Source: Nitratireductor sp. ZSWI3
GTDB lineage: Bacteria; Pseudomonadota; Alphaproteobacteria; Rhizobiales; Rhizobiaceae
Direction: 5' to 3'
Length of the DNA: 61,715 bases
NCBI RefSeq assembly: GCF_024655565.1
Contig: NZ_JANKOF010000020.1
Span: 1-61,715 of the forward strand
Shown piece by piece: positions 18,569-45,289 of the stretch (positions within the stretch are counted from its first letter, which is position 1; the number at the start of each line of letters is the position of its first letter). The position numbers were made by a program, and so were the translations under genes. The notes beneath the pieces are model-generated. The model ran no database searches, had not been told where the DNA came from, and was given only the letters and a program-made list of their open reading frames with translations.

Positions 18569-18589
18569 AAGTCGTTACTTCAACGACTT
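18569..18589. terminator. Hairpin between convergent hflX and mazG
   Basis: The arms AAGTCGTT (18569-18576) and AACGACTT (18582-18589) enclose a 5-nt loop, exactly at the junction of the two convergent genes. The hairpin overlaps the last codons of mazG. On the plus strand only a short T-run follows. A bidirectional terminator is plausible because there is no other space for one. Confidence 0.4.
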
Positions 18590-19393
18590 TGCCTGCTGCC
18601 ACAGCGCCTCCATGTCGGCCAGGCTCGCTTCTTCCAGCGAGCGTCCGGCCGCGTTCAGGGCGCGCTCGACATGGCCGAAGCGCTTGCGGAACTTGTCGTT
18701 GGCGGCGGCCAGGGACGCTTCGGGATCGTGCCCCAGATGGCGGCCGAGATTGGCGAGTGCGAAGAGCAGGTCGCCGTATTCCTCGGCCACATGGGCGTCG
18801 TCGCCGCTGGTGATGGCCTGGCGCAGCTCGCCGATCTCCTCCTCGATCTTGTCGAGAACGGGCCCGGCTTCGCCCCAGTCGAAGCCGACGCGCGCGGCGC
18901 GCTGCTGCAGCTTCAGGGCGCGCATCAAGGCGGGCAGGGCGCGGGGAACCTCGTCAAGATGGGCCGGCTTTTCCGCCGTCGGCTGATGGGCGGCGCGCCG
19001 GGCCTGGCGCTCGGCTTTCTCGTCGGCCTTGATCTTGTCCCACATGCCCTTCGCCATTCCCTTGCCGCGCGCTGCGGCGTCGCCGAAGACATGAGGATGG
19101 CGGCGGATCATCTTGGCGGTGATGGCCTGAACGACGTCGCCGAAGGCGAAGTGCTGCTTCTCCTCGGCCATGCGGGCATGGAAGACGACCTGCAGCAGGA
19201 GATCGCCCAGTTCCTCGCGCAGATCGTCCATGTCGCCGCGCTCGATGGCATCGGCCACCTCGTAGGCTTCCTCGATCGTGTAGGGCGCGATGGAGGCGAA
19301 ATCCTGCTCGACATCCCAAGGGCAGCCGGTTCCGGGCGTGCGCAGGGCCGCCATGATCTCCAGCAGTCTGGCAATGTCGGTCGATGGCTGCAT
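18575..19393 (-). CDS. mazG: Nucleoside triphosphate pyrophosphohydrolase MazG
   Basis: A protein of 272 residues with two MazG all-alpha NTP-PPase domains. The first has CPWDVEQDFASIAPYTIEEAYEVADAI and EELGDLLLQVVFH, carrying the acidic metal ligands. The second has IEEEIGELRQAI and EEYGDLLFALANL. It hydrolyses (d)NTPs to monophosphates and clears aberrant nucleotides. ATG 19393 begins MQPSTDIARLLEIMAALR, the usual N-terminus; upstream in-frame codons lack family similarity. It marks the last clearly syntenic core gene on the left. Confidence 0.95.
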   Translation of the reverse strand: MQPSTDIARLLEIMAALRTPGTGCPWDVEQDFASIAPYTIEEAYEVADAIERGDMDDLREELGDLLLQVVFHARMAEEKQHFAFGDVVQAITAKMIRRHPHVFGDAAARGKGMAKGMWDKIKADEKAERQARRAAHQPTAEKPAHLDEVPRALPALMRALKLQQRAARVGFDWGEAGPVLDKIEEEIGELRQAITSGDDAHVAEEYGDLLFALANLGRHLGHDPEASLAAANDKFRKRFGHVERALNAAGRSLEEASLADMEALWQQAKSLK

Positions 19394-19564: not shown

Positions 19565-20044
19565 TCATTTCTTCATCGGCTTGTCGCCGGTGGCCGGCGC
19601 CATGTAGGTGAAGACATCGCTGCCGCTTTCGATGGCGGGACCCGATCCGCCTTCGTAGGAAAGGTTCCATTGGGTGACGATTTCCAGTGAGCCGTCACCG
19701 GTGCTGCCCGCATAACCTGACCAGCCGGTGGCCGAGTTGCAGTTTTCCGAGCCGTTGGACCAGGCCACCGAAAAGGCGATGAAATTGCCGTTCACCCGGC
19801 CGGAGACGGGATAGGGCGAATTCTGGCAGCCGGTGCCCTGGGCGTGGTTGACGTAATGGCCGGAGACTTCTCCGGTCGTGCTCACCGAGATTGTCATGGT
19901 GGAGCCGTACTCGTTGACCCAGCTGGTCGACGTGGCGACCAGGCTGGAAAAGCCGTCGAACGAGGCCGGATCGAACGGCTCCAGCGCCGAAGCCGGGACG
20001 GTGAGGACGAGAGCGAAGCCGATGACGACAGGAATGCGAACCAT
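19565..20044 (-). CDS. Secreted avidin-family biotin-binding protein (rhizavidin-like)
   Basis: A protein of 159 residues with a signal peptide (MVRIPVVIGFALVLTVPASA) and an avidin barrel. Residues aligned by eye with streptavidin's biotin pocket are Asn44 and Ser48 (NEYGSTMTI), Tyr64 (SGHYVN), Trp95 (VAWSN), Ser104, Thr106 and Trp108 (NSATGWSG), Trp126 (TQWNL) and Asp143 (SDVFTY). Cys73 and Cys102 sit in the two loops bridged by a disulfide in dimeric rhizavidin. The tryptophan that tetrameric avidins lend to a neighbour is replaced (GSGPAIESG). As recalled, it tracks the Rhizobium etli rhizavidin sequence closely. ATG 20044 has GGAGGA upstream. It should be periplasmic or secreted; its natural role is unknown. 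Confidence 0.93.
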   Translation of the reverse strand: MVRIPVVIGFALVLTVPASALEPFDPASFDGFSSLVATSTSWVNEYGSTMTISVSTTGEVSGHYVNHAQGTGCQNSPYPVSGRVNGNFIAFSVAWSNGSENCNSATGWSGYAGSTGDGSLEIVTQWNLSYEGGSGPAIESGSDVFTYMAPATGDKPMKK

Positions 20045-20475
20045 GGCGGAGTCCTCCATTAGCCTTGCCATGAGGTTTTGCGAAATCCGATGTCGATGTG
20101 GCTGGAGAGGCTGCAGGAACATGGGTTCCGACATGCAGTCTGACACCGGACGGCAACGCCGTAAAGCGGGAACCGGCCGGGCATCGAACGCCCAGCGCCG
20201 CAACAGCGCCACGCGTCCTGTCAGACGCCTCCGTGTGTGACTTCTAATGTAAATGCAACAAGGGCTTAAACGCCATCCTAGGGCAGGGAGGTCAGCCCCC
20301 GGTCAGGTGTGCTGGTCGGGGTTGCTAAGCCTGTCCGGGGGCGGATGGTGACACGGTTAAAGAAGGTCTGCTACGCGGACAAAGCTGACCACGCCATGCC
20401 GAGCTGTTGCAGATTGGAGGCAGTGGGCTACATTGCCGTTCAATCTGCCCCTCAGCCCCTATAAAGGAAGCCACA
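20045..20475. other. Intergenic region between the avidin-like and NIPSNAP genes
   Basis: About 430 bp separate two divergent genes. It holds the avidin-like leader (GGAGGA before ATG 20044) and, near 20464-20469, AAGGAA before the NIPSNAP gene. The stretch 20278-20345 is rich in CCCCGG and GGGG runs. I find no gene, repeat or RNA with support. Both promoters must lie here, but I could not place them. Confidence 0.5.
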
Positions 20476-20799
20476 TTGATCACGTGTTATGTTCGGTACG
20501 AACTAAATCCCGCAAAAATCGTCGAATTCGAAGAGTATGCGCGGATGTGGATTCCGTTGGTAGAAAAATTCGGCGGAATTCACCATGGGTATTATCTGCC
20601 TCATGAGAGCGCAAACGATCTCGCGGTTTGTCTGTTTTCCTTCCAATCGCTAGCGGACTACGAAGTCTATCGAACGAAGAGCTTAACGGATCCCGAGTGT
20701 CAAGCAGCCTTTGAATTTGCGGAGAACATGGATTGCATCAGAAGATATGACCGGCATTTTCTGCGCCCACTCGCTGGAACTGATAGAAACATCCTTTAG
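20476..20799 (+). CDS. NIPSNAP-family protein
   Basis: A protein of 107 residues with a single NIPSNAP ferredoxin-like domain: ITCYVRYELNPAKIVEFEEYARMWIPLVEKFGG, then HHGYYLP and the closing CIRRYDRHFLRPL. The start is TTG 20476 with AAGGAA seven bases upstream, which gives the usual family length; the longer reading frame has no similarity at its N-terminus. Members form small dimers with no established reaction. It has a lower GC content than the core genes to its left. It ends 60 bp before the transposase remnant, so it may belong to the accessory island. Confidence 0.85.
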   Translation: MITCYVRYELNPAKIVEFEEYARMWIPLVEKFGGIHHGYYLPHESANDLAVCLFSFQSLADYEVYRTKSLTDPECQAAFEFAENMDCIRRYDRHFLRPLAGTDRNIL

Positions 20800-20859: not shown

Positions 20860-21684
20860 TCATTTGGTCACTTCGCGTCTGAACACTTCAGCAGGAGTGT
20901 AAAAACTAAGGCACTTCCTCGGCGTGTTATTCAACCGGTCGATCAGTGACCGTATCTCTCCTTCAGGGACTGACAAAACAGCGGTATCCCGCGGCAGATA
21001 ACGCCGGATCCGTCGGTTCATGTTCTCAACGGAGCCTTTCTGCCAGGGTGCCGACGGATCGCAGAACCAGGCATCCGTTCCCATACCTTGCTTGAGCCGT
21101 CGCCAGGAGACGAATTCAAAGCCGCGATCGAATGTCAGACTTTGCCGGGCATGCCTGGGCAGGGGACCGAGTACATTGATAAGCCGGTCCATGATCGGTT
21201 TGGATTGCCGTTCATTGTTCTTGAACAGTACGGTGAACCGGCTGGTCCGCTCAACGACCGTCGCGACATTGGCGTCTCCGTGCACCCTCTGAAAGATCAT
21301 TAAATCAGCCTCCCAGTGGCCAAATTCCTTGCGTTCGTTGATGATTTTCGGTCGATGCTTGATTGAGCGCGCTTCCGGAAAAACCGGATTCTGCGGCTTG
21401 CGTGCGTATCTTGGTCGGCGCTCTTCCAGCTTTCCAATCACTGCGGTCCGCAGATCCTCGCGCCGAAAGAGCCTGCCGACACGCCGCCGCCGGTCGCGCG
21501 CCATATCGTTGGCGGTCATCGCCCAGTAGCCATAGGCATCGGGGAACTCACGGTCGTGCCAATAGTTGCGCCTGATCTCCCGGGAGATCGTCGCACGGTC
21601 ACGGCCGAGGCGTCTGGCGATCTCTGACTGGCTGCATTTCTGCTCCCGCATCCGGGAAATCGTTTTGCGTTCTTCAAAACTCAA
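20860..21684 (-). pseudogene. IS30-family transposase with an internal in-frame deletion
   Basis: The reading frame is open for 274 residues, but IS30 transposases of this type are about 320-350. The N-terminal HTH is present (CSQSEIARRLGRDRATISREI). The DDE core is present too: GHWEADLM (first Asp), TFDRGFEF (second Asp) and KGSVENMNRRIRRYLP (Glu). Between KLEE and RRPRYARK the usual segment of roughly 65-70 residues (WTPEQI...ETIYR...HLP) is missing, so the linker domain is lost without a frameshift. Whether this copy can transpose is doubtful. I could not define terminal inverted repeats or a target duplication. Confidence 0.8.
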
Positions 21685-22090
21685 AACATCGCTCCCGAAA
21701 AGCAGGCAGCTTAGCGCCTTTGTTGCAGTTCGGGATAGAATGTGCCGTGGCTGAACATCAAAGTCGCATAAGATAGATTATGGAACTTATTGGTGGTTCG
21801 CGTGTGTTGCTTTCCGGCTCCAAACCGCAGTTTTCCATGTCGCCGCTTTCGGCGAAAGTTTGCGGTTAGTGTTGTTGCCATTCATCGGCAATCAGAATGT
21901 CTGGAAAGTCCGCATGTGCGCCTCACCGATGGATTCAGCAAACGCAAAGTCATACGCCTAGTGGTTGCAAATATGACACAACTATAAGGTAACTACCCGA
22001 TGGTGTGAACAATGGCTGGAACGTGCTTGCCCGCCATAAAGCCAGTGGTTAATCCGGAACCTGACGATGCGGAAACCTTCAGGAGGAGCG
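21685..22090. other. Intergenic region upstream of the polysaccharide export gene
   Basis: About 400 bp with no supported gene. It contains AACCGCA near 21825 and TGCGGTT near 21867, which can pair around a CGCCGCTTTCGGCG hairpin. It is less GC-rich than the core. It may hold the right end of the IS30 element and the promoter of the export lipoprotein; neither could be placed. Confidence 0.4.
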
Positions 22091-23221
22091 ATGCGGCGGA
22101 TTGCAGCCATCTTGGTCGTTGGTCTTTTGAGTGCATGCGGCAGCCCGTCGGCCGGACCGACCGTCGGCGACATCACCTCAGCCACACTTCCAAATTCCAG
22201 CGAGCGCATCCCCGTCATCAATCTGATGGATGCCCCGATCGATTTTCCGGCGACCGCCACCGCCTACCAGGCGACCGATCACGGGCTCAGCCGGTTTCGG
22301 TCCGGCGGCAGCATGGATTCGCGCTTGCGGCGCGGCGACGTGATCGAGGTCACGATCCTCGACACCGGCGAGGACGGCCTATTTTCCGCGACAGACAGCA
22401 AGACGCTCAATCTTGGCCGTTTCACCATCGACGAAGGCGGGTTCGTCAATCTGCCTTTCGTCGGCCGCCAGCGTGTCATCGATTCGACGCCTGAGGGATT
22501 GCAGAACCGAATCGTCAGCAAGCTGCGCAGCTCGTCGGTCAATCCGCAGGCGGTGGTCACCGTGGTCGAAAAGCCCACCAGCAGTGTGACCGTCAACGGC
22601 AAGGTGCGTTCCGCAGGGCGTTTCCCGCTCACCAGCAACCGCGAACGGGTGCTCGATGCGCTGGCGCTTGCCGGCGGTGCGGAAGGCGCGCCGGGGTCCA
22701 CCACCGTCACGCTCGTGCGCGGCCAGCACCGCGCCAGCACGACGCTGGATCGCATCCTGAATGAGGAAAGCCAGAACATCCGGCTTATGCCTGAGGACCA
22801 GCTTTTCATCGACGGCGACGCGGCAAGCTTCACGGCCTTCGGTGCTTTCAAGAGCACCGGCGAATTCCAGTTCGAACCGGGCAAGATGACGCTGGCGCAG
22901 GCTGTGGGCCGAGCCGGTGGCCTGCTGGACGACCAGGCGAATGCACGCCACGTCTATCTGATGCGCAACCAGCCGGTTCACTCCAATGTCGCCGCCGCTT
23001 CAGCGGGCAAGAACCCGGGAGCTCCCTTTATTACCACGAAGCCGGTCGTCTATCGCGTGGACATGAAAGAAGTGGCAAACCTTCTGCTCATGCAGAAGTT
23101 CCAGATGCGCGACGGCGACCTGCTGGTCGCGACCAACGCGATGATGGTAGATGCGGCGAAGCTGATGACGGTGTTCCAGAAGAGCCAGGCCTTGCCCGCC
23201 GCTGCGCCTCCAGGCAACTGA
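22091..23221 (+). CDS. Wza-type polysaccharide export lipoprotein
   Basis: An outer-membrane lipoprotein of 376 residues. The N-terminus MRRIAAILVVGLLSACGS is a lipoprotein signal with the lipobox LSAC. A Poly_export domain (LRRGDVIEVTIL, GRFTIDEGGFVNLPFVG) is followed by SLBB beta-grasp segments (VTVNGKVRSAGRFPLTSN). ATG 22091 has AGGAGCG upstream. Members form the outer-membrane channel for capsule or exopolysaccharide. Here it stands alone, with no glycosyltransferase, Wzc kinase or flippase gene nearby. It converges on the last T6SS gene with a 4-bp gap. Confidence 0.9.
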   Translation: MRRIAAILVVGLLSACGSPSAGPTVGDITSATLPNSSERIPVINLMDAPIDFPATATAYQATDHGLSRFRSGGSMDSRLRRGDVIEVTILDTGEDGLFSATDSKTLNLGRFTIDEGGFVNLPFVGRQRVIDSTPEGLQNRIVSKLRSSSVNPQAVVTVVEKPTSSVTVNGKVRSAGRFPLTSNRERVLDALALAGGAEGAPGSTTVTLVRGQHRASTTLDRILNEESQNIRLMPEDQLFIDGDAASFTAFGAFKSTGEFQFEPGKMTLAQAVGRAGGLLDDQANARHVYLMRNQPVHSNVAAASAGKNPGAPFITTKPVVYRVDMKEVANLLLMQKFQMRDGDLLVATNAMMVDAAKLMTVFQKSQALPAAAPPGN

Positions 23222-23225
23222 TCGC

Positions 23226-24125
23226 TCAGGCTGCGCCCAGCCTGGCGAGGGCATCACGTGCAGTGATGCCCTTCCCTTCTTGAAGCATTGCCGCGATTTC
23301 CCGCAGTGCCGATGATCCGCCTTCCGAAGCGAGACGCTCCAGCATCAGCGCAACGATCTTGCCGGCCGCGCGCAGATCACGTTCAGGGTTCGCGGTCCGG
23401 TTCTCGTCGTCGAAGCCTGGCGTACCGCCCCTTCGGATACCCAGAGAAGCAAGGCTTTCGTTTGCTTCGAGTGCGATGCCGAAATCCGCGATTTTGAGCG
23501 CGGGATCATCCCCTTTTGTAAGCAGCAGATTTTGCGGCGATATGTCGGCGTGGACGAGCCCCGCTTCGTGGATTGCGGCAAGGCCACCAAGAAGGCCGGA
23601 GACGATCCGGCGCAGGGCCGTCGCGCCGATTGGGCCGCCGCTTCTCAATAGATTGGCGATGCTTCCGCCGCCCATCCATTCCATCACGAGTGCGGGACGC
23701 CCGTCCGACAGGCGCAACAGCACGTCGGCGGCGACGATCGCGGGATGGCGCAGGCGCTGCATGATGCGCGCCTCGCGCAGGATGAAACCGGCTGAGACAA
23801 CATCGGCAGCATTATCGGGCACAAGCGTCTTCATAGCGTGGTGTGTGCCGAGATCGCGATGGCGCAGGCGATGCATTTGGACGCGGTCGCCCGCATGGAC
23901 GACGCCCTCGTCCCAGAAGCTGTTCGCGATGAGATCGCACCCGTCGTCACCGGCCAAGTCGGAGACGTGGCGGTCGAGTGCGGAACGCACCTGATCGAGA
24001 AGAAACTGGACGTCTGTTTGCGAGCGGGGAACGCCCTCATGCAAGCGCACGGCCCGCCAGAGCTCGGCATAGCGGGAGGCGACGACATCCATGCCGGGCG
24101 GGAGGCCCTCCCCCGCAACGTTCAT
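23226..24125 (-). CDS. ppkA: T6SS serine/threonine protein kinase (PpkA/ImpN-like)
   Basis: A protein of 299 residues with a Hanks-type kinase core: Lys99 (HHAMKTL), Glu118 (REARIM), the catalytic loop HADISPQN with Asp194 and Asn199, and Asp214 of DFG. The canonical glycine-rich loop is not visible before Lys99, and HRD is replaced by HAD. There is no membrane segment or sensor domain, so it is shorter than Pseudomonas PpkA. It is the last imp gene, and its start overlaps the tagF-pppA stop by 4 bp. In Agrobacterium, PpkA phosphorylates TssL to turn secretion on; the same is inferred here. Confidence 0.88.
   Translation of the reverse strand: MNVAGEGLPPGMDVVASRYAELWRAVRLHEGVPRSQTDVQFLLDQVRSALDRHVSDLAGDDGCDLIANSFWDEGVVHAGDRVQMHRLRHRDLGTHHAMKTLVPDNAADVVSAGFILREARIMQRLRHPAIVAADVLLRLSDGRPALVMEWMGGGSIANLLRSGGPIGATALRRIVSGLLGGLAAIHEAGLVHADISPQNLLLTKGDDPALKIADFGIALEANESLASLGIRRGGTPGFDDENRTANPERDLRAAGKIVALMLERLASEGGSSALREIAAMLQEGKGITARDALARLGAA
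23249..23282 (+). terminator. Probable rho-independent terminator for the export gene
   Basis: The arms GGGCATCAC (23249-23257) and GTGATGCCC (23263-23271) enclose a 5-nt loop and are followed by the pyrimidine-rich TTCCCTTCTT. It lies 28 bp after the stop of the export gene, inside the 3' coding end of the convergent kinase gene. A second, weaker hairpin (CAGGCTG/CAGCCTG) sits at 23227-23244. Confidence 0.5.
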
Positions 24126-25492
24126 TGTGCCAGCTCAACGCCGAGCACGATGGCGCTGACATTTTCCCGGGTTCCGGCAATCAGGCTCTCCTGAACGAGG
24201 GTCGACGCGGCCTCTGCCACCGGCGTCGCGGCGACGATGCCGGCGATCGTGCGCTCATCGAGGACACGCGTCAGGGGCGCGCTGCATAGAAGCAGCCGGT
24301 CGCCGCTTTGAAAGGTATCGACCACCACGTCCGGGACGAGTTGCCGCATTCCGCCGACGCTGCGCGAGAGCCGCCGATGCAAGCCGACCTCGACATGATC
24401 TCGCGTCAATGCCCGCATCGTGCCGTCGCGCATCAGATAGCAGCGCGCATCGCCGGCCCAGATGACGGCGAAATCTTCGCCGAGGCCAGCGAGCGCGACC
24501 ACGCTTGCACGGGGCTCATCCACATCGGCCATCGAAACCTGAAGCAGGCCCTGCGCACGGCCAAGCTTCCCCTTCACCTCCTGGACGAGATTGGCGAGCG
24601 TCTCCTGCGCAACCGTTGCCGACAGCGCGTTTACCACCGTCTTGGCAGCCTCCTTGGCGCGAATGTCGTCGCCGATCCCATCGGCGACGACCAGAAGGCT
24701 CGGGCTCCGCGAGACAAGAAGCGCATCGCCGTTCACCGCGTGGCGCGTGCCAGGATGCGTGGCATAGCTGCGCTCGTGAACCGGCGTCTTGCGTGGCGCT
24801 TCAGGGACGACCGCCACCGCCGTCTCGACCGAGGCAGGCCCCTCCTCTCCCGTGGAATCGGCGGCGGTCGGACGCCCTATCTCCAGCAGCTTCATGAAAT
24901 CGGCGGGCGTTGGCGCACCGTCGGTGCTGAAGCCCTGGACCTTGCGGGTCTCGGGTGAGATCGTCCACCACAGGGTCGAATGCGCGAAGCGCGACGAGCC
25001 CTGCTGCCCGCGATCCTCGGCATCCCGCGCGTGAGGCAGCCGCAGGCGCTTGATTGCGGCCGGAAAGCCGGTGAGATCGAACTCGTCGGTCAGAGAGGTC
25101 TCGGCCAGCGCCTCGGCGGCCGTGAACCAGGTGCTGTCGAAACAGAGCTGTCGTGGATCCTCGCGATAGTCGCCGAGTTGGGCGGCAACAACCAGGGGAA
25201 ACTGACGACCGACACGATCCGCATTCGGCAACAGCACGCCGACATGCGTCGCAGGCCCCCAAAGGCCGCGCGGGACGACGAAGCGCCATATCGGCATCGT
25301 CTCGAACCGGTCTTTCCATCGCGGGCCGAGCACTTCACGGCTCATCTCCATCCCCGCCTGCAGCCAGAGGTCGAGGGCTTCCCGGAAGGCGGGACTGACA
25401 CCTGAGGCGACAAAATCGCCGTGGCTCGGCACCTTGCCGAAGAAGCCGATCCTGTCGGATGCTGTCCCGATGCTCGCTTCGCGCTGGTTCAT
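24122..25492 (-). CDS. tagF-pppA: TagF-PppA fusion (T6SS repressor and PP2C phosphatase)
   Basis: A protein of 456 residues with two modules. Residues about 14-210 match TagF (IGFFGKVPSHGDFVASGVS, FDLWLQAG-like helix, FVVPRGLWGP). Residues about 235-456 match a PP2C phosphatase (THPGTRHAVNGDALL, VVADGIGDD, AVIWAGDARCYLMRDG, TRENVSAIVLG) with the metal-binding aspartates. ATG 25492 begins MNQREASIG. The same fusion is known in Agrobacterium ImpM, where it silences T6SS after translation, opposing PpkA. The two opposing activities are encoded side by side and overlap by 4 bp. Confidence 0.93.
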   Translation of the reverse strand: MNQREASIGTASDRIGFFGKVPSHGDFVASGVSPAFREALDLWLQAGMEMSREVLGPRWKDRFETMPIWRFVVPRGLWGPATHVGVLLPNADRVGRQFPLVVAAQLGDYREDPRQLCFDSTWFTAAEALAETSLTDEFDLTGFPAAIKRLRLPHARDAEDRGQQGSSRFAHSTLWWTISPETRKVQGFSTDGAPTPADFMKLLEIGRPTAADSTGEEGPASVETAVAVVPEAPRKTPVHERSYATHPGTRHAVNGDALLVSRSPSLLVVADGIGDDIRAKEAAKTVVNALSATVAQETLANLVQEVKGKLGRAQGLLQVSMADVDEPRASVVALAGLGEDFAVIWAGDARCYLMRDGTMRALTRDHVEVGLHRRLSRSVGGMRQLVPDVVVDTFQSGDRLLLCSAPLTRVLDERTIAGIVAATPVAEAASTLVQESLIAGTRENVSAIVLGVELAQ

Positions 25493-25499
25493 GACAATC

Positions 25500-28400
25500 T
25501 CAGAGTTGCGACGGACAGCGGAAGTCCGCCAAGGCCGTGAGCCGGAAGGGATTGAGCACGGAGCCGAACTGCACCTCGAACTCCGCCTCCAGCCCAGCGT
25601 TCCTGAAGCTGGCGCGGAAGAGGTCGTCCGCCTCGTCCGAGATCTGCGCCCGGTCAAAGAGCCGGAAGACCGACCAGTCGCCATTTTCCGTGATCGCATG
25701 GTCCCAGCCGCCGGGCATGAACAGGAGATGGGAGAGGTTCTTCGATTCCTCGGAGGGCCAGTGAACGGATTTCGACTGGACGCGGCCGTTGTTTGTATAG
25801 ACGACCTTCTCCCCCTCGATCTCCATCATCACGGCTTCCGCCCCGCCGGACAGCGATACGGGCTTGATATTTATGGTCACCGCCGGGCTCCCCGAGCCTT
25901 CGCGGAAGAAAGCGCGCCGGATGCGGTCCGCGTTCTCGAATTGTGCAAGGGCCTCGCTCGGCTCTCCCGGCGCGCCGAACGTGCCACGCCATGTCCAGGG
26001 CGAGACGGTCGTATCGACGAAGGGCTCGAGGCGTTCCTTGAAGAAGCGATCGAAAACGCCGGAAGGCGCGAAGAGCCTGACGAAGTCGCTCATGGCGACG
26101 TCGCGTGATGACTCGCGGACGAATGGATAGCGGCCATCGACGATGTTGGTGCAGACTGCGTTTTGCGAACTCCAGAGGTCATTGAACTGGGCTCGCGCCG
26201 TCTTGACCGCCAGCGAAGCGATATCGGCGGAAATACCCGCCACCCACGTGTCGAGCGGCGCCGGCAATTGTCTGCCCTGCTGCAGCAGATCCTGATTGGC
26301 GGTAACAAGTTGGCTATCCGCATCGAACACCTGCGCCACTTCCGCGGTGGAGGTCGCCGCGCGGGAAAGCCTGTCGTGAAGCGCCGCGATCGACGTCTGC
26401 AACGCGGCCATGGGCGTCGCCTCGTCGGCGCCCTGTGCCTGGGCGTCGCCGTCGGCGGCCTCGACCACTTCGCGGAGCCCGGCGAACGGATCGGGCGGCG
26501 TGAGGCCGGCGGCCAGCGATGCCGCTTCGTTCGCCGCCGGAATGGCCGCGCCCAGTGGATCGAGGTTGGTCGCGGCGGCAATGGATTTCGCCGCCGCCTC
26601 CAGCGGAGCGGGATTGCCCCCTAGCATCCGCACAGTCTCGGCCGCATCCTTCAATGACTGCGAGGATCGGGGGCGCATATCGGTCGCCAGTGCCCGCCAT
26701 CTTCTCTCGAAATTGTCGAAATAAAGCTGGACGGCTGCCCGCGAAACGCTGTCGACGGTCGTGCCGGCAGGGTTCTGCTCGCCGCGCACCCACTCCTCGC
26801 TGAGCGCCTCGCTGGCTGCGGAGGCCAGCGACGGCAGGACCACGGTTTGATAACCGCGCGCGGTGAAGAAGCCGGGCATCCCCTCGCGAAGCGAGGCCCG
26901 GGATGCACGCACGAAGGCCCTTTCGCCGAGCGGACCGAGCGCTTCCGCGGGGACCCAGGCAGGAAGCAGGCGCGCGGCGCGTTGGTCTTCGAGTATATCG
27001 TAGGCACGAGCGGCGACGCTGCGCTCGCGGATGACGGCGCGCGCATCGGCGATCAATCGTTCGTCAAGCGCAATGGGTTGAATGGGTCCGGAGGCCAGGC
27101 TTTCCGCATGGGCGGCGAGCGCCCTGCGGGTGACTGCGCGGCCTTCACCGGGATAGAGCTCGGCGAATATGTCTTGCGCCTGCACGGCGACGAAATCCGG
27201 ATCCGCCGGCCCCATGCCACCGAGCATCGCATAGAGCTTGAGATCGTCGAAGCTGCGTGCGGGGTCTTCTGCCTCGGCCAATCGCGCCTGCAGGTGATAG
27301 AGCATGCGCGGCAGGAGCAGCCCGTTGAGCGCCCGCTGATAGGCCTCGCGCTGACGGCTCCTGATCTTGTTCTCCTGATCGAGGCCGAAACTCACCTGCC
27401 AGACAGGCTTGTCGGCAAAGCCGGCGGTAATGTTGCGCAGGTTGTCGAGCGCCGGCAGGATACGCAGGAAATCCGCGTCGGCGACATCGCGGATCGGGAT
27501 GTTGCGGGCGTGGTCTTCGTAGGCGTCGATCCGCTGCTCGGCCTGCGCCAACGCGCCGAAATTGCGGAAATAGGTGGCCGTCCAGCTCGCCAGGACGACG
27601 ATGGCCACAGCGGCGGCAAGACCGTAAGCGACCTGCCGCAAAACGAACTGGCGTCGCGACAGGCGCCGGTCGCGGGCGACGAGCGCCGCCTCGCCGAAGA
27701 TGACATCGGAGAACAGACGCGACAGGAAATAGCTGCGGCGCGGGCGTGATGCAGCCTCACCGGTCATTGCCTCTTCGGCCTGAGTGCCCGAGGCCAGGTA
27801 GACGCCGCGCAGCAGCGGCGCTTCCACCAGCCTGGAGCCGGAGCAAAGCTCCGTCAGAATCTCGTGCAAACGTTCCTTGAGCGAAGCGAGCTCTGCGGGG
27901 AAACGGAAGATGCGTCCCCTCGCCTCGACATCCTGTTCCTGCTGCATCCGCTCGATCAGCATTGAGCCGACGCGCTCCTGGAGCAGCGCGAATTCTTCCA
28001 CGAAACGATCCGGCAGATCTTGTGCCTTGTAGCTTTCGTCGAGCGCGAAGGTCGCGCCCCAGACCTGTTCGCGGTCGGATTTGTTGAACCCGTCGAAGAA
28101 GTCCACGAAGCCGGTCAGAAGGTCAGCTTTGGTCAGCACCACATAGACCGGCACCCGTGCCTGGAGGATTTCATCAAGCTCCGACAAGCGCTGGCGTATG
28201 GCGCGCATTTCCTCCAGCCGCGCTTCGGATTCGCGGGTCAACAAGTCGCCGATGGAGATCGTGACCAGTGCGCCGTTGATCGGCTGCGAGCGGCGGTATT
28301 TCTTGAGAAGACCGAGAAATCCCTCCCAACCTGCCTTGGATGCACCGTCTAGGTCGTCCTGGGTGGTGTAGCGGCCGGCGGTGTCGATCAGGATGGCGTC

Positions 28401-28961
28401 TTCGGCGAACCACCAATTGCAATTGCGCGTGCCGCCGATCCCCTGCACGGATTTCGTGCCCATCGCCTCGCCGAGCGGGAACTTCAGGCCGGAATTGGTG
28501 AGCGCCGTCGTCTTGCCCGAACCCGGTGCGCCGAAGATCACGTACCAGGGCAGTTCGTAGACATAGCCGAAACGCTTGCGCGTGACCCGGCGCATGAGCG
28601 CCAGCGCTTCCTTTAGCCGGTCGCGGATTTCGCCGACTTCGGCCTGCTGGCGCTGGGCAGCCTCTGCCGCCGTATCGTCCTCCAACCCTTCCGCCAGCGC
28701 CTTGTCGCGCCGGCGCCCGCGGATGATGGAGACAACCAGGTAGATCGCCCACACGGCCACGACGATGCCGATGACCGTCAGTCTCGCGGCGGTGCCGGCG
28801 AGCGGCTTGAAATCGCCATAGCCGAGGAGATGGCCGTAAAACCAGACGACCACGCAGATCGCGACGACCCATATCAGCGACAGGAACCGTGCGCCTAGGA
28901 ACCCGGCATAGGAATCCACATAAGACCGGAGCGTGTAGAAGTAGCTCAGAGGGTTGATCAT
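25500..28961 (-). CDS. tssM: T6SS inner-membrane core protein TssM (IcmF/ImpL)
   Basis: A protein of 1153 residues. Two N-terminal membrane segments (about 27-47 and 60-82) and a third near 440 anchor it. A cytoplasmic NTPase domain carries Walker A GAPGSGKTT (144-152). The rest is the long periplasmic domain and a C-terminal beta domain (WPSEESKNLSHLLF). It forms the trans-envelope complex with TssL, and with TssJ in systems that have one. No TssJ lipoprotein gene is present in this window. Its start overlaps the tssL stop by 4 bp. Confidence 0.97.
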   Translation of the reverse strand: MINPLSYFYTLRSYVDSYAGFLGARFLSLIWVVAICVVVWFYGHLLGYGDFKPLAGTAARLTVIGIVVAVWAIYLVVSIIRGRRRDKALAEGLEDDTAAEAAQRQQAEVGEIRDRLKEALALMRRVTRKRFGYVYELPWYVIFGAPGSGKTTALTNSGLKFPLGEAMGTKSVQGIGGTRNCNWWFAEDAILIDTAGRYTTQDDLDGASKAGWEGFLGLLKKYRRSQPINGALVTISIGDLLTRESEARLEEMRAIRQRLSELDEILQARVPVYVVLTKADLLTGFVDFFDGFNKSDREQVWGATFALDESYKAQDLPDRFVEEFALLQERVGSMLIERMQQEQDVEARGRIFRFPAELASLKERLHEILTELCSGSRLVEAPLLRGVYLASGTQAEEAMTGEAASRPRRSYFLSRLFSDVIFGEAALVARDRRLSRRQFVLRQVAYGLAAAVAIVVLASWTATYFRNFGALAQAEQRIDAYEDHARNIPIRDVADADFLRILPALDNLRNITAGFADKPVWQVSFGLDQENKIRSRQREAYQRALNGLLLPRMLYHLQARLAEAEDPARSFDDLKLYAMLGGMGPADPDFVAVQAQDIFAELYPGEGRAVTRRALAAHAESLASGPIQPIALDERLIADARAVIRERSVAARAYDILEDQRAARLLPAWVPAEALGPLGERAFVRASRASLREGMPGFFTARGYQTVVLPSLASAASEALSEEWVRGEQNPAGTTVDSVSRAAVQLYFDNFERRWRALATDMRPRSSQSLKDAAETVRMLGGNPAPLEAAAKSIAAATNLDPLGAAIPAANEAASLAAGLTPPDPFAGLREVVEAADGDAQAQGADEATPMAALQTSIAALHDRLSRAATSTAEVAQVFDADSQLVTANQDLLQQGRQLPAPLDTWVAGISADIASLAVKTARAQFNDLWSSQNAVCTNIVDGRYPFVRESSRDVAMSDFVRLFAPSGVFDRFFKERLEPFVDTTVSPWTWRGTFGAPGEPSEALAQFENADRIRRAFFREGSGSPAVTINIKPVSLSGGAEAVMMEIEGEKVVYTNNGRVQSKSVHWPSEESKNLSHLLFMPGGWDHAITENGDWSVFRLFDRAQISDEADDLFRASFRNAGLEAEFEVQFGSVLNPFRLTALADFRCPSQL

Positions 28962-30466
28962 GGCCGGCCGCCCTCCTCCGCTCCGCCCTGTACAAGCGGT
29001 GTGCTGCGAAGCGGTGCAATGCCGGCCGCCTCAAGGCTTTCTCTGGGATCGGTGAGAACCAGTATCTCCGTCCGCCGATTGGCTTCGCGGCCCTCCCGCG
29101 TCGAGTTGTCGGCAATCGGATCGCTTTCGGCGCGACCGACCGTCAGGATCGCTTCCGGCCCCGTGAACTGGGCGAGGATGTCTCCCACCGCCTTGGCACG
29201 CGCCTCCGAAAGCTGCCAGTTCGATGGGAATTGCGCGGTGCGAATGGGTCTGTCGTCGGTATAGCCGACCACCAGGGCGCGGAAATCCTCCGAGGCAAGC
29301 GCGGCGCCGATGCGGCTGAAAAGCGCGACGAACTCTTCGCTGACGTCGGCGCTGCCGACATCGAACAGCCCGGTGTTGGCGATGCGGACAAGAAGCCGGC
29401 CATCCGCATCGGCAAGCTGGACGGTCCCGCGTTCGACGTCCGGCTGAAGGAAGGCGAGCAGGTTTTCCAGCGCGCTCGGCCGCTCGGGTTCCGGCGGCGT
29501 CACGATGACGGGTGGCTCCTCCACCGGTTCGGGCACAGGCCGCGGCAATGCGGCAACGCTTGGCGCGTCAGCCGGTCCAACGCTTGCCAGACGCGAGAAA
29601 GTGCCATCCGACGCACGGTTGAGCGACAGCGTGAAAAACAGATAACCAAACGCGAAGACGAGCGCGAGCACGGACAACAAAGTCCACAGGGCCACGGCGG
29701 TGCGCAGCGGCTTGTGGCGCGCGGCAACACCCTTCCAGTGCGGCGACAGCTCGCGTTCGAACACGCCATATTGGCCAAGCAGCGTCTTGTAGAGGTTCTC
29801 GCGGATACGGGAGAGCTCCAGCGTACCGCGCGGCGACACCCGCGTGCGCCCCTCGAAGGCGAGCGAGAGGCACAGATAGATGAGGAGAAGGAGGTCCTTG
29901 CTGGACGCCGGCGTCTTGTGGAAATGGTCGAGCAGGTCGAATACCTTGTCGCCGCCCGTCACGTCCATGTGGAAGGTCGAGACCAGACCGGAACGCGCCC
30001 AGCCTGCCCGCACGCCCCAGGACTTGCTGAGGATCACGTCGTCGACGGTCGCGCACATCACATAGTGCGCCGCTCTCGCTCGCTCGGGACTGATGCGAGC
30101 GCTGGCAAGGTCCCGCTCGTAGCGGCGGATGGCTTCCGTCGTCACCCGGCGAAGCTGTTCGGTGTCGGGCTGTGTGTCGCTCTGCCGGATTGCGTGGGCA
30201 AGATTGAGCAGCGGCGCGGCGGAGGCGACGATGGTCGGCACCTCGCTGCCGCCGAAACGGAAGTCGCGCACCATCGCCTCGACGGACCATGCTTGCGGCG
30301 GCCGACGGTTCGTCGCACCGTCGTTCGCGGTTTCGGATACCGGTTCGATCACGTCGTCGAGGATGTCGGCCATCTGCTGCGCGGTCTTCTGTTTACGCGC
30401 ACTGTCGTCGGTCAACTCGATGACGGTCGGCAGGTCCTGCCAGGAAATGGAGTTCTGCTTGTTCAT
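28958..30466 (-). CDS. tssL: T6SS TssL with C-terminal OmpA/MotB-like domain (ImpK)
   Basis: A protein of 502 residues. It has a cytoplasmic DotU domain (about 85-260), one membrane helix (ALWTLLSVLALVFAFGYLFF), and a periplasmic OmpA-like peptidoglycan-binding domain (LVVGYTDDRPIRTAQFPSNWQLSEARA, NRRTEILV). The OmpA-fused form, termed evolved TssL, lets the membrane complex grip the cell wall directly. The N-terminal extension rich in Thr/Ser/Asp before the DotU domain is where Agrobacterium TssL is phosphorylated by PpkA; I see a Thr at residue 14 (PTVIEL), but the site is not proven. Confidence 0.96.
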   Translation of the reverse strand: MNKQNSISWQDLPTVIELTDDSARKQKTAQQMADILDDVIEPVSETANDGATNRRPPQAWSVEAMVRDFRFGGSEVPTIVASAAPLLNLAHAIRQSDTQPDTEQLRRVTTEAIRRYERDLASARISPERARAAHYVMCATVDDVILSKSWGVRAGWARSGLVSTFHMDVTGGDKVFDLLDHFHKTPASSKDLLLLIYLCLSLAFEGRTRVSPRGTLELSRIRENLYKTLLGQYGVFERELSPHWKGVAARHKPLRTAVALWTLLSVLALVFAFGYLFFTLSLNRASDGTFSRLASVGPADAPSVAALPRPVPEPVEEPPVIVTPPEPERPSALENLLAFLQPDVERGTVQLADADGRLLVRIANTGLFDVGSADVSEEFVALFSRIGAALASEDFRALVVGYTDDRPIRTAQFPSNWQLSEARAKAVGDILAQFTGPEAILTVGRAESDPIADNSTREGREANRRTEILVLTDPRESLEAAGIAPLRSTPLVQGGAEEGGRP

Positions 30467-31803
30467 TCTCTCAGCGCCCAGAGTTCCATTTCGATTTCAG
30501 GGAAATTGCCTGCAAGGTGGATCGCAATCGCGCCCGACGTATCGAGTTGCTTCCAGAGCGAGCTCTTGGTGTCGAGTTCGAAATAGATCGTGCCGGACCG
30601 GTATGGGAGCTGGCGCGGCAGCACCGGCAGCGAGCGTACCGGAATGCCCGGCAGCGCAACGTTGACGAGTTCTGCGATGCGTTCGACCGGACCGACCTTG
30701 ATCTGCGCGGGCAGATTGCGGCGGATATCCTCCGCCGACATCTCGGCGCGCACCGCAAGCACGAACCCGGCATCGCGCAGCAACGAACGATCGTTGATCG
30801 TGCCGACGCGGACACCATGCCGGCGCTCGACCAGATCGATCGCCACCGCTGCCTGTTCGAGCATTGCCGAAAGCGACGTGCGCAGATCGTCGAAGACGAC
30901 GGCGAATGTCGATTTGAGGTCGTCGTGGCGATAGGGCGGGAAGTCCGTCGCACGCTTGGAATCGAAGGTGAAGGTCGCGAGCTCACCTGCGAGCTGAATG
31001 CACAGCTCGTAGAAGGTGATCGGGTGTATGCGGGTCGTGTTCGCCGAAACATGGCGCAGCATCGGATCGGCGCGGTTGAGTATCTGCAGCAGCAGGTAGT
31101 CGCCAACTTCAGCTGTGCCACGGATGGTCGGATCGCCGATGCGCTCGGCGATCGCACCGGCGCGATGGCGCACGATGCCGAGAAGCTCGGTGACGAGCTC
31201 GGCAAGACGCGGCTCGGCCGCGCAGTTGAGCGCCGGTGCGATATAGGCCGGATCGAGGATCACCGCCTTGTCGGAGCGAACCTCGATCACATGCGCAAGG
31301 CCGATAAGCTCGTAACCTGAAAGATCGTCACCCGTCTTGAGGTAACGAAGGTTGAGCCGGCCAACATCGATCTGCGCCATGAAATCGGTTTCGACGTTTG
31401 AATCGGGCGCCTCGTAGGGCGATGCAACCACACGCACGCCGTTGGCCGACGCACCGCCGTTCATCGCCACATCCGCTTTGCCGGAACGGCGCGCCGGCAG
31501 CGCCAGGTAGATGGTCGCGTCGCGAACGGTCTCGTCGAGATCGAGCGGCGGCGGCAAGTCGGCATCGATGGGCGCTTCGAAGAGTGTCCCATCGGGCAGG
31601 ATGCCGCGCAGATGCGACAGCGCGAACTGGCCGATCGCCAGTGCGCTGCGGTCGATGCCGATCTCGGCGACACCCCAGGGATATGGAGACAGCTCACGCA
31701 GGCTCGTGCGCACCAACCTCTCGGTCCAGCGGTCCGACTGCTGGAAGTGCTGCACGCGCAGGAACATACCTTCGTTCCAGGCAACCCTGTTCTCGTACCT
31801 CAT
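30463..31803 (-). CDS. tssK: T6SS baseplate protein TssK (ImpJ/VasE)
   Basis: A protein of 446 residues with the diagnostic opening NRVAWNEGMFLRVQHFQQSDRW and a middle section VLAVRAEMSAEDIRRNLPAQIKVGPVERIAELV. The C-terminus (YFELDTKSSLWKQLDTSGAIAIHLAG) is the TssK receptor-binding-like domain that attaches the baseplate to TssL/TssM. It overlaps tssL and the FHA gene by 4 bp on each side, consistent with coupled translation of baseplate and membrane-complex proteins. Confidence 0.97.
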   Translation of the reverse strand: MRYENRVAWNEGMFLRVQHFQQSDRWTERLVRTSLRELSPYPWGVAEIGIDRSALAIGQFALSHLRGILPDGTLFEAPIDADLPPPLDLDETVRDATIYLALPARRSGKADVAMNGGASANGVRVVASPYEAPDSNVETDFMAQIDVGRLNLRYLKTGDDLSGYELIGLAHVIEVRSDKAVILDPAYIAPALNCAAEPRLAELVTELLGIVRHRAGAIAERIGDPTIRGTAEVGDYLLLQILNRADPMLRHVSANTTRIHPITFYELCIQLAGELATFTFDSKRATDFPPYRHDDLKSTFAVVFDDLRTSLSAMLEQAAVAIDLVERRHGVRVGTINDRSLLRDAGFVLAVRAEMSAEDIRRNLPAQIKVGPVERIAELVNVALPGIPVRSLPVLPRQLPYRSGTIYFELDTKSSLWKQLDTSGAIAIHLAGNFPEIEMELWALRE

Positions 31804-33047
31804 CGGTGGGCGTCAACCTCTCTGTCATCATCCTGCGGTATGGCCTCGGCCGAATCCTGCTCCTGCAGCGCCTGCCGTGCGGCCCGGCAAAGCAGATCGT
31901 GAACCGAGAGCCGACCGCCTTCGTCTTCGAACTGCGCGCAATAAGCCTGCCAGTAAGTGCGATCTCGGAGCCAGGGCAGTTCCCTTCCCCAGGTAAGGCG
32001 GCGCGGTTCCGCATCGATCAGCGCTTCAAGCATCGAGGGATCGAACTGCCGCGTGGCGCGGGCGAACATGCCATCGAGCGCCAAAGCCAGCCGCATCTGG
32101 TCTTGCAGCAGCGCATCGAGCCGCAACGCCAGCGCTTCCGCTCCGCTATCGGAAAATGAAAAGGAAGCGGCAGACGGGCCGTCGGCGTCCATGCCGAGCC
32201 TGGAGAAAAGCTCGCCACTCGCCTCCTCGCAGCGCGCCAGCAGTGTCCCCAGACGGTGCAGGTCCGCAGCCGGAACCGGTGGTGTGTCTGGATGGGTGGT
32301 CCCAGCCACGACCGCCGCTTCCACCTCATCGGTTCCCGGGGCGGTCTCTACGGGGCGCTCAGCCTCTGCCTCTTGCGAAACCGGCGCGCTGCGCACCACG
32401 GCGACCGGTGCGCGCGTCGCAGAAACATGTTCGAAACGTGTGCTCGTCTCGGTCTCCTGGTTCCAGTCGTCAGGCAGCACTGGCGAGAACCCGCCCGTAT
32501 CGGGTGCGCCGTGCCAGCCAATCTCGACGTTTCGCGACGACGGCGTGCCGCTATTTGCCTGCTCGGCGGTCACGCCGGCGAGCCAATCTTCGCCTTCACC
32601 GACCGCGCCCCGCAACCCGCTGGCCGTGCGGGCAGACGGCGCCACGTCCGCGAGGATCGACGAGATCGTCAGATTGTCGTCGCCGAGCCGCAGGTCGGCA
32701 TCCGGGTCGTCATGGGAAGCGTCCCGCTCGCCGCTGATCGCGACGACGAAGCCGAAATCGCCGATCTCGACCACAGATCCGGCATCAAGGGGAACGGTCT
32801 CGTCTTCGTGGACGATCACGCCGTCGACGCGTGATCCGTTCGCGCTCTTGTCGCGCAGAAGAAAGCCGTTGCGGTCGCTTTCGATGACGCAATGGAGCTT
32901 TGAAACGGTGCGCTTGGGATCCGGTATCTGCCAGTCGCAATCGCCCGCTCTGCCGATGGTGCGGTTTCCGGTCTCGAAGTACCAGCGTTGCCGCGGCGCA
33001 CCGTCGCCAAAACCCTTGGCAGGTTTGAGCTCAAGGCGAAGCGTCAT
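31800..33047 (-). CDS. fha: T6SS FHA-domain protein (TagH/ImpI)
   Basis: A protein of 415 residues. The N-terminal FHA domain (RTIGRAGDCDWQIPD, VSKLHCVI, LRDKSANGSRVDG) binds phosphothreonine. A long acidic, low-complexity linker (about 130-280) leads to a C-terminal T6SS-FHA domain (LLQDQMRLALALDGMFARATRQFDPSMLEAL, WGRELPWLRDRTYWQAYCAQF). With PpkA and the TagF-PppA fusion it completes a threonine-phosphorylation switch. In Agrobacterium, phosphorylated TssL recruits Fha. Confidence 0.95.
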   Translation of the reverse strand: MTLRLELKPAKGFGDGAPRQRWYFETGNRTIGRAGDCDWQIPDPKRTVSKLHCVIESDRNGFLLRDKSANGSRVDGVIVHEDETVPLDAGSVVEIGDFGFVVAISGERDASHDDPDADLRLGDDNLTISSILADVAPSARTASGLRGAVGEGEDWLAGVTAEQANSGTPSSRNVEIGWHGAPDTGGFSPVLPDDWNQETETSTRFEHVSATRAPVAVVRSAPVSQEAEAERPVETAPGTDEVEAAVVAGTTHPDTPPVPAADLHRLGTLLARCEEASGELFSRLGMDADGPSAASFSFSDSGAEALALRLDALLQDQMRLALALDGMFARATRQFDPSMLEALIDAEPRRLTWGRELPWLRDRTYWQAYCAQFEDEGGRLSVHDLLCRAARQALQEQDSAEAIPQDDDREVDAHR

Positions 33048-34054
33048 GTCACGCCTCCCCCGCCTTTGCCCAAGATGGCGTGTCGCGTGAGGATTGCATC
33101 GCCGCAGTCGTGGACAGCCGGCGTTCCGAGAGCCCAGCTGTTCCAGCCAAGGCGCGGCCGCTCGCCACCCTTGCCGCCGAGATTGCAGAACGGCACGTCT
33201 TCCTTGCGCAGGATCACCTGCATGTCGAAATCGAGGCCTGAGCCGACAAACAGGCGCGTCAGCGCAAAGAGCTCGCGCGCCGCGCGGCCACCCGGCGCAA
33301 GCGCCAGATAGTCGGCATAGGCCAGCGGGCCGATGACAACGCGGAAGCCACCGCTGAAATCGCGGATGGCAGCTCCTGCCATCGCATCGACGCCGAGCTG
33401 CACGGGCTCATCGCGCGTCATGCGGCTCTGCTCCGCCTCCGGCACCGACAGCCAGCGGCCGCGGAAGAGCTCGACACGCACCGGCAGGCCGGTGAACTCG
33501 CCGAGCATCGCTTCGAGGTTCGAGGCGTTGCGTGTGCGCGCTGCGAAAAAACCGCTGAACCGGAGGACGAGTTCGTCGTCGACCCCGGCCGTCTCCCGCA
33601 GGCGAGCCGTGCGAAAGCCGGTGAGCGCGAACACCGCGTTCCTGAACGTCTCCGCGGCACCGCCGCGCCAGCGCATCAGCCGCGGCAGGCGATACTTTTC
33701 GCTGGCGTCGACGAAGAGCTCGACCATTCGGGCGCTGAGCATGTCGAGGAAGGCTTTGAGGCCGCGCGCCCGATTGCGCTCCTCACGCATGACAACTTCA
33801 TTGTAGGCCGGCGGCAACGCACCGACCGGCCCGAGCAGCCCCGGAAAAGCGGTGCGCAGGCTGGCTTCGCCGCTCCTTCTCCTGAAGCCGTCTACGGCGA
33901 GCGGCGCGGTGGACACACCGACGCCGGATGCGAGGGCGAGCACATCACTCGCCTCCTGGGCCACACGAAAGGCCGTCGTCGGCTCGAAGCGGCCCGGATC
34001 GGCTTCGAGCCGTTCGGCGAGGTCGATCTCTTCGGGTCTGACGGTTTCGTTCAT
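33044..34054 (-). CDS. tssG: T6SS baseplate protein TssG (ImpH)
   Basis: A protein of 336 residues with the TssG hallmarks ERLEADPGRFEPTTAFRVAQ near the N-terminus, AFPGLLGPVGALPPAYNEVVMREERNRARGLKAFLDML and LGWNSWALG at the end. TssG joins TssF, TssE and TssK in the baseplate wedge. It overlaps the FHA gene by 4 bp and follows tssF with a 10-bp gap. Confidence 0.96.
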   Translation of the reverse strand: MNETVRPEEIDLAERLEADPGRFEPTTAFRVAQEASDVLALASGVGVSTAPLAVDGFRRRSGEASLRTAFPGLLGPVGALPPAYNEVVMREERNRARGLKAFLDMLSARMVELFVDASEKYRLPRLMRWRGGAAETFRNAVFALTGFRTARLRETAGVDDELVLRFSGFFAARTRNASNLEAMLGEFTGLPVRVELFRGRWLSVPEAEQSRMTRDEPVQLGVDAMAGAAIRDFSGGFRVVIGPLAYADYLALAPGGRAARELFALTRLFVGSGLDFDMQVILRKEDVPFCNLGGKGGERPRLGWNSWALGTPAVHDCGDAILTRHAILGKGGGGVT

Positions 34055-34064
34055 CGCCCGATCC

Positions 34065-35840: not shown

Positions 35841-36342
35841 GCGGCGCCTCCACGAGGAAACGCTGCGTCGACGGATCGATGGTCGATTCGAAGCTGATCG
35901 GCGGCATACCTTCATGCAGCCGAAAGGAGGCCTGTATGCGCAGGCGCAGCGTGCGCTCGGTCGCGGCACGCTTTTGCAGGATGGTCACATGTACGTCCGA
36001 AAGCCGCGTCTCGACCATCGAAATCCGCCGTTCGAGCGAGCGGGCCAACGCCAGCTTGGATTCGTCCGTCACCAGATTGGCCGAGACGATCCCGTCCATG
36101 CCGTAAGTATGGAGGGAGTCCCTCAGTTCGGACATTTCTGCAGGCGGCGCAGAAGGGCATCGGCGCGTGTTGAGGAGCGCTTCGAGGTCACGGCGAATCG
36201 CCTCGCGCATCTCACGGACCTGATCGACCAGGCTTACTTGCGGATCGGCGGCCGACTCCGGGTTTGGATCGACGAGCCGATCCAGGATCGACCGCGCGAG
36301 AACGCGTTCGCCGGGCCGGTAGCGCTCGAGTGGATCAGGCAT
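35833..36342 (-). CDS. tssE: T6SS baseplate protein TssE (gp25-like, ImpF)
   Basis: A protein of 169 residues that resembles phage T4 gp25. It has RAILDRLVDPNP-type opening residues (ARSILDRLVDPNPES), the conserved core REAIRRDLEALLNTRR (gp25-type EYRR equivalent region), and NLVTDESKLALARSLERRISMVETRLSDV. It starts sheath polymerisation on the baseplate. ATG 36342 overlaps the end of the upstream ImpE gene by 8 bp. Confidence 0.93.
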   Translation of the reverse strand: MPDPLERYRPGERVLARSILDRLVDPNPESAADPQVSLVDQVREMREAIRRDLEALLNTRRCPSAPPAEMSELRDSLHTYGMDGIVSANLVTDESKLALARSLERRISMVETRLSDVHVTILQKRAATERTLRLRIQASFRLHEGMPPISFESTIDPSTQRFLVEAPRG

Positions 36343-37156
36343 CGAGCATCCTCTCGCGTTCGCCTTCGGCCTCGACACCAAACGACCTGGCGTCGTGGAA
36401 CGAGACCAATTCATCGCCGGCAAGGAAGCAACGTTGCCCCCGGCCGGTGGTGATGCCGTTCTCCTCGATCCACTGGGTCTCGCGTCCGAGCAGCAAGGTC
36501 GGATCGTCCCTGGTGCCGTGATAGATGGCCGGCAGGAGCACCGGCGCGATCGCGCCATCCTTGAGGGTGAGTTCGGCGCGGCGATAAGCCAGATCGCGCG
36601 GCCGCGCGATCGGCTCCACGGTGACGGAAGCGACCTGCGAGAAATCCACCCACAGATAGGCGCCGCCCGTCATGAGCACTTCGAGCGCATGGGGTAGCCG
36701 ATCGTCGAGATCGCGGAAATCGGCAACCTTCTTTCCGTTCCAGTAGATCGGACGCTCGCCGCGCTGATCGTCAAAGCCCGACAGCGCCGATTGCGCATCG
36801 CCTGCACCTTCACGGACTGTCAGCGCCATGTCGAGCGCCGCACGGTCGAGCGGCGTCGGACCACCTGGGAACGAGGGAACGGCACCGCTTTCAAACCAGG
36901 CTTGCCGCGCAACCATGGCACGGAGCTGGTTGCGCAAAAGCGCGAAACCCATCGTGTCCTGCGGGGAGAATGTCGCGGCAAGACTACATTGCGCATCCGC
37001 CTTTTCCAACTGGCCGGACAGGATCAACAGGTCGATATAGAGATGGCGCGCCTCCTTGTCGGTCGGATCCCCCTTCACATGCTCGCGCGCCTCATCCAGG
37101 GCAGCGGAAAGCGCGTTTTCGCCAAGCAGCGTCGCGATCTTCCTGGAGAGTGTCAT
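36335..37156 (-). CDS. tagJ: T6SS accessory protein TagJ (ImpE)
   Basis: A protein of 273 residues of the ImpE/SciE family. It has an N-terminal helical part (EHVKGDPTDKEARHLYIDLLILSGQLEKADAQ), then a middle DDRLPHALEVLMTGGAYLWVDFSQVASV and the closing RGQRCFLAGDELVSFHDARSFGVEA. TagJ binds the N-terminus of TssB in some systems and may link the sheath to ClpV recycling. It overlaps tssC2 by 4 bp. Confidence 0.92.
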   Translation of the reverse strand: MTLSRKIATLLGENALSAALDEAREHVKGDPTDKEARHLYIDLLILSGQLEKADAQCSLAATFSPQDTMGFALLRNQLRAMVARQAWFESGAVPSFPGGPTPLDRAALDMALTVREGAGDAQSALSGFDDQRGERPIYWNGKKVADFRDLDDRLPHALEVLMTGGAYLWVDFSQVASVTVEPIARPRDLAYRRAELTLKDGAIAPVLLPAIYHGTRDDPTLLLGRETQWIEENGITTGRGQRCFLAGDELVSFHDARSFGVEAEGERERMLDA

Positions 37157-38538: not shown

Positions 38539-38552
38539 CGTCCGGTCCTGTC

Positions 38553-38580: not shown

Positions 38581-38591
38581 ACTCTGGAGTT

Positions 38592-40073: not shown

Positions 40074-40097
40074 CGTATCGCCCTTTCGTCAACGCCG

Positions 40098-45273: not shown

Positions 45274-45289
45274 CCGGCGCACGCCAAGG

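Follow-up and report, generated by a model that had tools for sequence, protein, structure and literature searches.

A rhizavidin-type avidin gene in a core neighbourhood of Nitratireductor sp. ZSWI3 and its probable role in biotin storage

An avidin gene of the rhizavidin type was found in the window, which is the whole analysed stretch of 61,715 nucleotides from Nitratireductor sp. ZSWI3 (NZ_JANKOF010000020.1). The gene is located between mazG and an inserted island with T6SS genes, and the features of the locus are the following.

19565..20044 (stop codon included), minus strand: avidin gene, rhizavidin type, 159 amino acids; Pfam, PDB sequence and Foldseek matches
20052..20057, minus strand: GGAGGA, likely ribosome-binding site 7 bases ahead of the ATG; read from the sequence
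19985..20044, minus strand: codons 1–20, likely Sec signal peptide, a hydrophobic stretch followed by A18-S19-A20; judged by eye
19826..19828, minus strand: Cys73 codon, corresponding to rhizavidin Cys50 in the L3,4 loop by alignment
19739..19741, minus strand: Cys102 codon, corresponding to rhizavidin Cys79 by alignment
19568..19609, minus strand: C-terminal tail, codons 146–159, past the last strand; possible intrinsic ligand, judged from the tails of relatives
18575..19390, minus strand: mazG, conserved neighbour; ATG start inferred
20476..20799, plus strand: NIPSNAP-family gene between avidin and island; 46.9% GC versus 63.1% for the window
20860..21684, minus strand: IS30-like transposase; HTH_38 56.4 bits (above cut-off), rve 27.7 bits (below cut-off)
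21764..21790, plus strand: dif-like site between avidin and island; same 27 bases in N. soli
22067..57673, no strand: inserted island, limits approximate; polysaccharide-export gene, T6SS genes, VgrG and PAAR-like genes
57792..58259, minus strand: YbaK-like gene, at which the core order resumes; 78.8% identity to N. soli

The avidin and its relatives

The minus strand from 20044 to 19565 formed a single frame of 159 codons and a stop, and the plus strand of the same stretch was interrupted by stops when its frames were read. The score of the product with Pfam Avidin (PF01382) was 57.5 bits, the cut-off being 24. With the NCBIfam streptavidin model NF047623, 37.6 bits were obtained, which is below the cut-off of 300. 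Among the best 60 of 152 PDB sequence matches, rhizavidin (3ew1) was at the top with 179.7 bits and an E value of 3.6e-52, followed by agroavidin (147.6 bits), afifavidin (123.7 bits), and then hoefavidin and shwanavidin. When the mature part was aligned with rhizavidin, 83 of 135 residues were identical. The close rhizavidin homologue that a previous sequence-only reading had placed at these positions was thereby confirmed, and the minus strand was added to its description.

The residues Asn44, Ser48, Tyr64, Trp95, Ser104, Thr106, Trp108, Trp126 and Asp143 were the same in rhizavidin and invariant across the seven aligned avidins, leaving the pocket proposed in that reading unbroken. Its assignment of Cys73 and Cys102 to the positions of the rhizavidin disulfide also held, as the two aligned with Cys50 and Cys79 and were both invariant in the seven-avidin alignment. 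The full translation contained no tryptophan downstream of Trp126 and hence lacks the L7,8-loop tryptophan found in tetrameric avidins, in agreement with the earlier remark on the inter-subunit tryptophan. The cysteine pair, the biotin-pocket residues and the missing L7,8 tryptophan are those of the rhizavidin type, and at the sequence level they support a rhizavidin homologue with dimer-type features.

The structure prediction suggested together with these claims was run with AlphaFold on a shallow 7-row alignment. The model had a mean pLDDT of 72.3 and eight strands, as in an eight-stranded barrel, with pLDDT below 50 at residues 6–30 and 156–159. The top Foldseek ranks were agroavidin and then rhizavidin, with E 2.2e-14 each, and the best 50 rows were avidin structures throughout. 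The TM-score with a rhizavidin–biotin chain was 0.92 by target length.

Avidin relatives were detected at 36 loci with an alignment-based genome scan; the scan with a single-protein query recovered none. The best named relatives in the former were from Nitratireductor soli and N. pacificus, with 66% and 62% identity, respectively. The avidin was carried by three of the ten Nitratireductor genomes, in one copy in that of ZSWI3. The three proteins formed one tree group (support 96/91), as is expected under vertical descent, and the dN/dS values of the three Nitratireductor pairs, 0.20–0.29 with a custom Nei-Gojobori script, indicate purifying selection. The short avidin-like proteins of loci L014 and L016–L023 had neither the cysteine pair nor an obvious signal peptide, and their genomes mostly contained bioB; judged by these sequences, they are possibly cytoplasmic.

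Avidin relatives were also present in 41 of 72,556 plasmid records, e.g. NC_004041.2. Rhizobium accounted for 37 of the 41, and Phaseolus was given as the source in 33 of these 37, so rhizavidin looks tied to the plasmids of bean rhizobia. A phage origin was also considered, but none of 50,697 phage records gave a match and no match to viral contigs was confirmed.

Genomic neighbourhood and the T6SS island

The gene order in N. soli and N. pacificus was hflX, mazG, MFS gene, avidin, dif-like site, YbaK, MBL, tatD, metG and holB. The corresponding order in the window was hflX, mazG, avidin, NIPSNAP gene, IS30-like transposase, dif-like site, T6SS island, YbaK, MBL, tatD and metG. The island begins about 2 kb from the avidin, past the NIPSNAP gene, the transposase and the dif-like site. 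By this order the dif-like site separates it from the avidin, and YbaK follows at its other end. T6SS genes were absent from the mazG–YbaK interval around both avidin orthologues (N. soli and N. pacificus). With the 501-residue TssL query, a full-length match was obtained in ZSWI3 alone among the ten Nitratireductor genomes; in the other nine, the matches listed started at residue 296 or later and covered the OmpA-like C-terminal part. In the avidin-free species, the metG block was reversed in L101, L106 and L107; it falls outside the stretches of L102, L103 and L105, and L104 covers the RlpA end only.

The 27 bases of the dif-like site were identical in N. soli (L029:11214-11240), where they are next to YbaK, and the N. 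pacificus copy (L030:5311-5337) had 5 mismatches. Of the three Nitratireductor species, the window alone has the T6SS island between the site and YbaK. The window contains the motif CATAA-N6-TTATG once, against 0.008 occurrences expected from base composition. In the loci of relatives (1.1 Mb, many overlapping) it was found in five, all from N. soli or N. pacificus. PMC5357621 describes the dif form as two arms with a 6-base centre, and by this form the sequence is a putative dif site. The site stands at the left of the island, which may have entered by Xer-type insertion, but near 56.5–58.0 kb the best match to the 21-base core of the site had 9 mismatches. GC skew had no clean switch there.

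Within the island, two adjoining genes at 37153-40073 each matched the T6SS tail-sheath families VipB and VipB_2. Behind VgrG, the stretch 48624-57673 contained SUKH-family, DUF2169 and PAAR-like genes and several ORFs with no Pfam match, a cargo of possible effector and immunity genes.

The MFS gene adjoins the avidin in N. soli (L029:8600-9808) and N. pacificus (L030:10316-11506), and it had no match in the window. The N. soli gene scored 624.9 bits with the CmlA/FloR chloramphenicol-efflux model (cut-off 450). Across genera, no conserved partner gene was found within about 10 kb of the avidin. The GTPase neighbours in Roseibium, Stappia, Hongsoonwoonella and a Rhodobacter MAG were rejected as a shared partner, being LepA, two EF-G-like proteins and RF3. 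A GcvT/DAO-type oxidoreductase adjoins the avidin in both Afifella and R. cremeum, and Peteryoungia and R. cremeum had a few other ORFs in common near it.

Biotin genes of the host and of other avidin carriers

No bioB above the cut-off was found in the ZSWI3 genome. The sole match of the model scored 38.6 bits (cut-off 225), is located at 3535-4068 of the window and fits another radical-SAM enzyme, which we take to be probably lipoyl synthase. There was no match for bioD, and two BioY importers were detected. From this gene content the host is predicted to require outside biotin. Among the Nitratireductor genomes, bioB was present in one of three avidin carriers and in none of the seven others, and BioY in all ten; the avidin thus does not track auxotrophy within the genus. 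The bioB carrier is N. pacificus, in which bioD was not found either. Its bioB (L071, G400:C19:89953-91328) adjoins bioY with BioR-like boxes, as if this species imported dethiobiotin.

The searches for BioR sites were performed with a putative consensus box. With this box, no site with up to 2 mismatches was found in the 300 bases upstream of the window avidin and its two Nitratireductor orthologues. Perfect copies of the box were present at two of ten bioY loci and at the N. pacificus bioB locus, and none was found at the one ZSWI3 bioY locus examined.

For a broader comparison, 25 alphaproteobacterial genomes that encode a rhizavidin-like avidin were combined from two genome sets (8 + 17, duplicates removed; G281 and G415, with the same coordinates, were counted once). 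Of the 36 scan loci, 28 were entered, 7 were in genomes already searched, and L069 was a fragment. The 11 genomes whose alphaproteobacterial affiliation was not clear (8 with bioB above cut-off) and the 15 genomes with avidins below 40% identity (bioB in 13) were left out. Among the 25 carriers, bioB exceeded the cut-off in three, namely N. pacificus, R. chutanense and Rhizobiales R129_A, and BioY was present in 24, a count made among carriers alone. In the order sample, 139 of 397 genomes had bioB above the cut-off, and the difference from the carriers gave a two-sided Fisher p of 0.017 with kinship ignored; nearly one and the same Rhizobium protein occurs in many of the 25. The association of rhizavidin-like avidins with auxotrophy is treated as a lead only. 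In Gammaproteobacteria, the three relatives that keep the cysteine pair had bioB without exception and no BioY, and two f35-family genomes that encode cysteine-pair avidins also contained bioB. According to the available text of PMC8914248, avidins adjoin transport genes in Rhizobium and synthesis genes in Bradyrhizobium.

Role of the avidin and comparison with known systems

The literature search for avidin in Nitratireductor found no paper. Published physiology comes from the biotin auxotroph R. etli CFN42, in which a rhizavidin insertion mutant in serial biotin-free subculture was weaker in the second passage and did not grow in the third, growth being restored by the gene in trans or by biotin (PMC8914248). 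In the available text of that study, its authors concluded biotin storage and argued against sequestration in R. etli, so the previous statement that the natural role of such proteins is unknown is out of date. The words "in rhizobia" in that statement hold for the family or the order and not below it, as the host is Nitratireductor. Further, the available part of PMC9666465 reports that biotin was the largest vitamin store of leaf auxotrophs and cites rhizavidin in support.

The role best supported for the Nitratireductor protein is storage, by analogy with R. etli, from which the physiology is taken. The protein would be exported to the periplasm, the Cys73–Cys102 disulfide would keep the binding loop closed, and free biotin would be bound tightly by a dimer or a dimer-based assembly. 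Since it would be exported, loop-closed and tightly binding, it could capture biotin and store it for a cell that has no synthesis of its own and imports the vitamin via BioY. We infer biotin binding, the dimer, the disulfide, the periplasmic location and storage, and consider periplasmic capture and storage in a BioY-importing auxotroph rather probable. The kinship with rhizavidin, the retained pocket and cysteines, the lack of bioB above the cut-off and of bioD, and the two BioY importers favour it. Against it stand the mismatch between avidin and auxotrophy in the genus, bioB in the gammaproteobacterial and f35 carriers, and the lack of a BioR box.

The neighbouring island had raised another explanation, a released protein starving rivals of biotin, perhaps together with the adjoining T6SS. 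The signal-like N-terminus and the intact pocket would suit this role, and two gene-ontology terms with defence-pathway genes were significantly associated with bacterial avidins in PMC8033661, the available text of which also reports avidin neighbours without clear association to particular pathways and an association of mobile-element terms. However, the N. soli and N. pacificus orthologues hold the same core interval without T6SS, and a full TssL match was found in one of ten genomes. The link to T6SS is thus unsupported, the island looks like a chance neighbour, and the tie to competition that the sequence-only reading saw in the island edge is not retained. A host seemingly without biotin synthesis would moreover starve along with its rivals. 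No outer-membrane export signal was evident, and Sec export ends in the periplasm. With the arguments against sequestration in R. etli (PMC8914248) added, competition is considered unlikely. The protein could instead be a scavenger that raises uptake by handing biotin to BioY at the inner membrane with no storage, a role consistent with BioY in 24 of the 25 alphaproteobacterial carriers. BioY was also present in all seven avidin-free Nitratireductor searched and is thus independent of the avidin, and avidin–biotin complexes dissociate very slowly (PMC8914248), which fits a store better than a shuttle; this role is quite unlikely.

The gene could also be a passenger of the T6SS or an IS-borne insertion with no settled role in the host. 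The IS30-like transposase is 0.8 kb off, avidin genes are plasmid-borne in other rhizobia (the 41 of 72,556 plasmid records), and the GC3 of the avidin gene, 80.6%, is closer to that of the listed T6SS genes (76–80%) than to that of the genes left of it (85–90%). In contrast, the gene occupies the same interval in three species, the tree group has support 96/91, dN/dS is 0.20–0.29, and GC3 is 77.6 and 83.6% in the two orthologues, beside which there is no island. The common place and the tree weaken this explanation and composition does not decide, so a passenger is very improbable.

Storage, the preferred role, has a difficulty of its own, since a protein that binds biotin very tightly stores it poorly if nothing sets it free. 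Biotin might be released as the protein is turned over, or the C-terminal tail might displace it by competition. In most rhizavidin-like relatives, about 12 residues come after the conserved D-x-F, and leucine or lysine is frequent close to the C-terminus; the exceptions are L056, L012 and L015, which have no such tail. C-terminal tails fill the ligand site in hoefavidin (PMC5398887) and bradavidin (PMC3344845), and by analogy the tail of the Nitratireductor avidin possibly frees biotin. A wider conjecture, which we hold to be doubtful, is that BioY-dependent auxotrophs among Alphaproteobacteria generally use rhizavidin-type avidins as a periplasmic biotin reservoir, with the tail competing for the pocket and discharge directed towards BioY. 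If true, a seemingly irreversible trap would act as a buffer; tail-driven release would be its new part, the storage role itself being already published.

Nitratireductor thus joins the hosts of rhizavidin-type avidins, with the gene in a settled core neighbourhood of a predicted biotin auxotroph, and a tempting but unsupported link between avidin and T6SS is removed. It offers a lineage outside bean-nodulating Rhizobium for testing the storage role and the release of biotin by a tight binder.

Rhizavidin (R. etli CFN42 plasmid p42d; PDB 3ew1, 3ew2) has the fold, the pocket residues and the cysteine pair in common with the Nitratireductor avidin, and likewise has a signal-like N-terminus and no L7,8 tryptophan. 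In contrast, rhizavidin is plasmid-borne whereas the Nitratireductor gene is in a chromosome-type core neighbourhood, and the C-terminal tails are unlike. Agroavidin (8amh, 8an6), second by sequence among the best 60 of 152 matches and first by Foldseek, was about 55% identical in the structural alignment. Hoefavidin (4z6j; 104.5 bits) and afifavidin (6hdv; 123.7 bits) are also cysteine-pair avidins with C-terminal tails and are more distant than rhizavidin. Streptavidin and other tetrameric avidins have the avidin fold and the pocket positions in common with the window protein, in which the tetramer-type tryptophan is absent.
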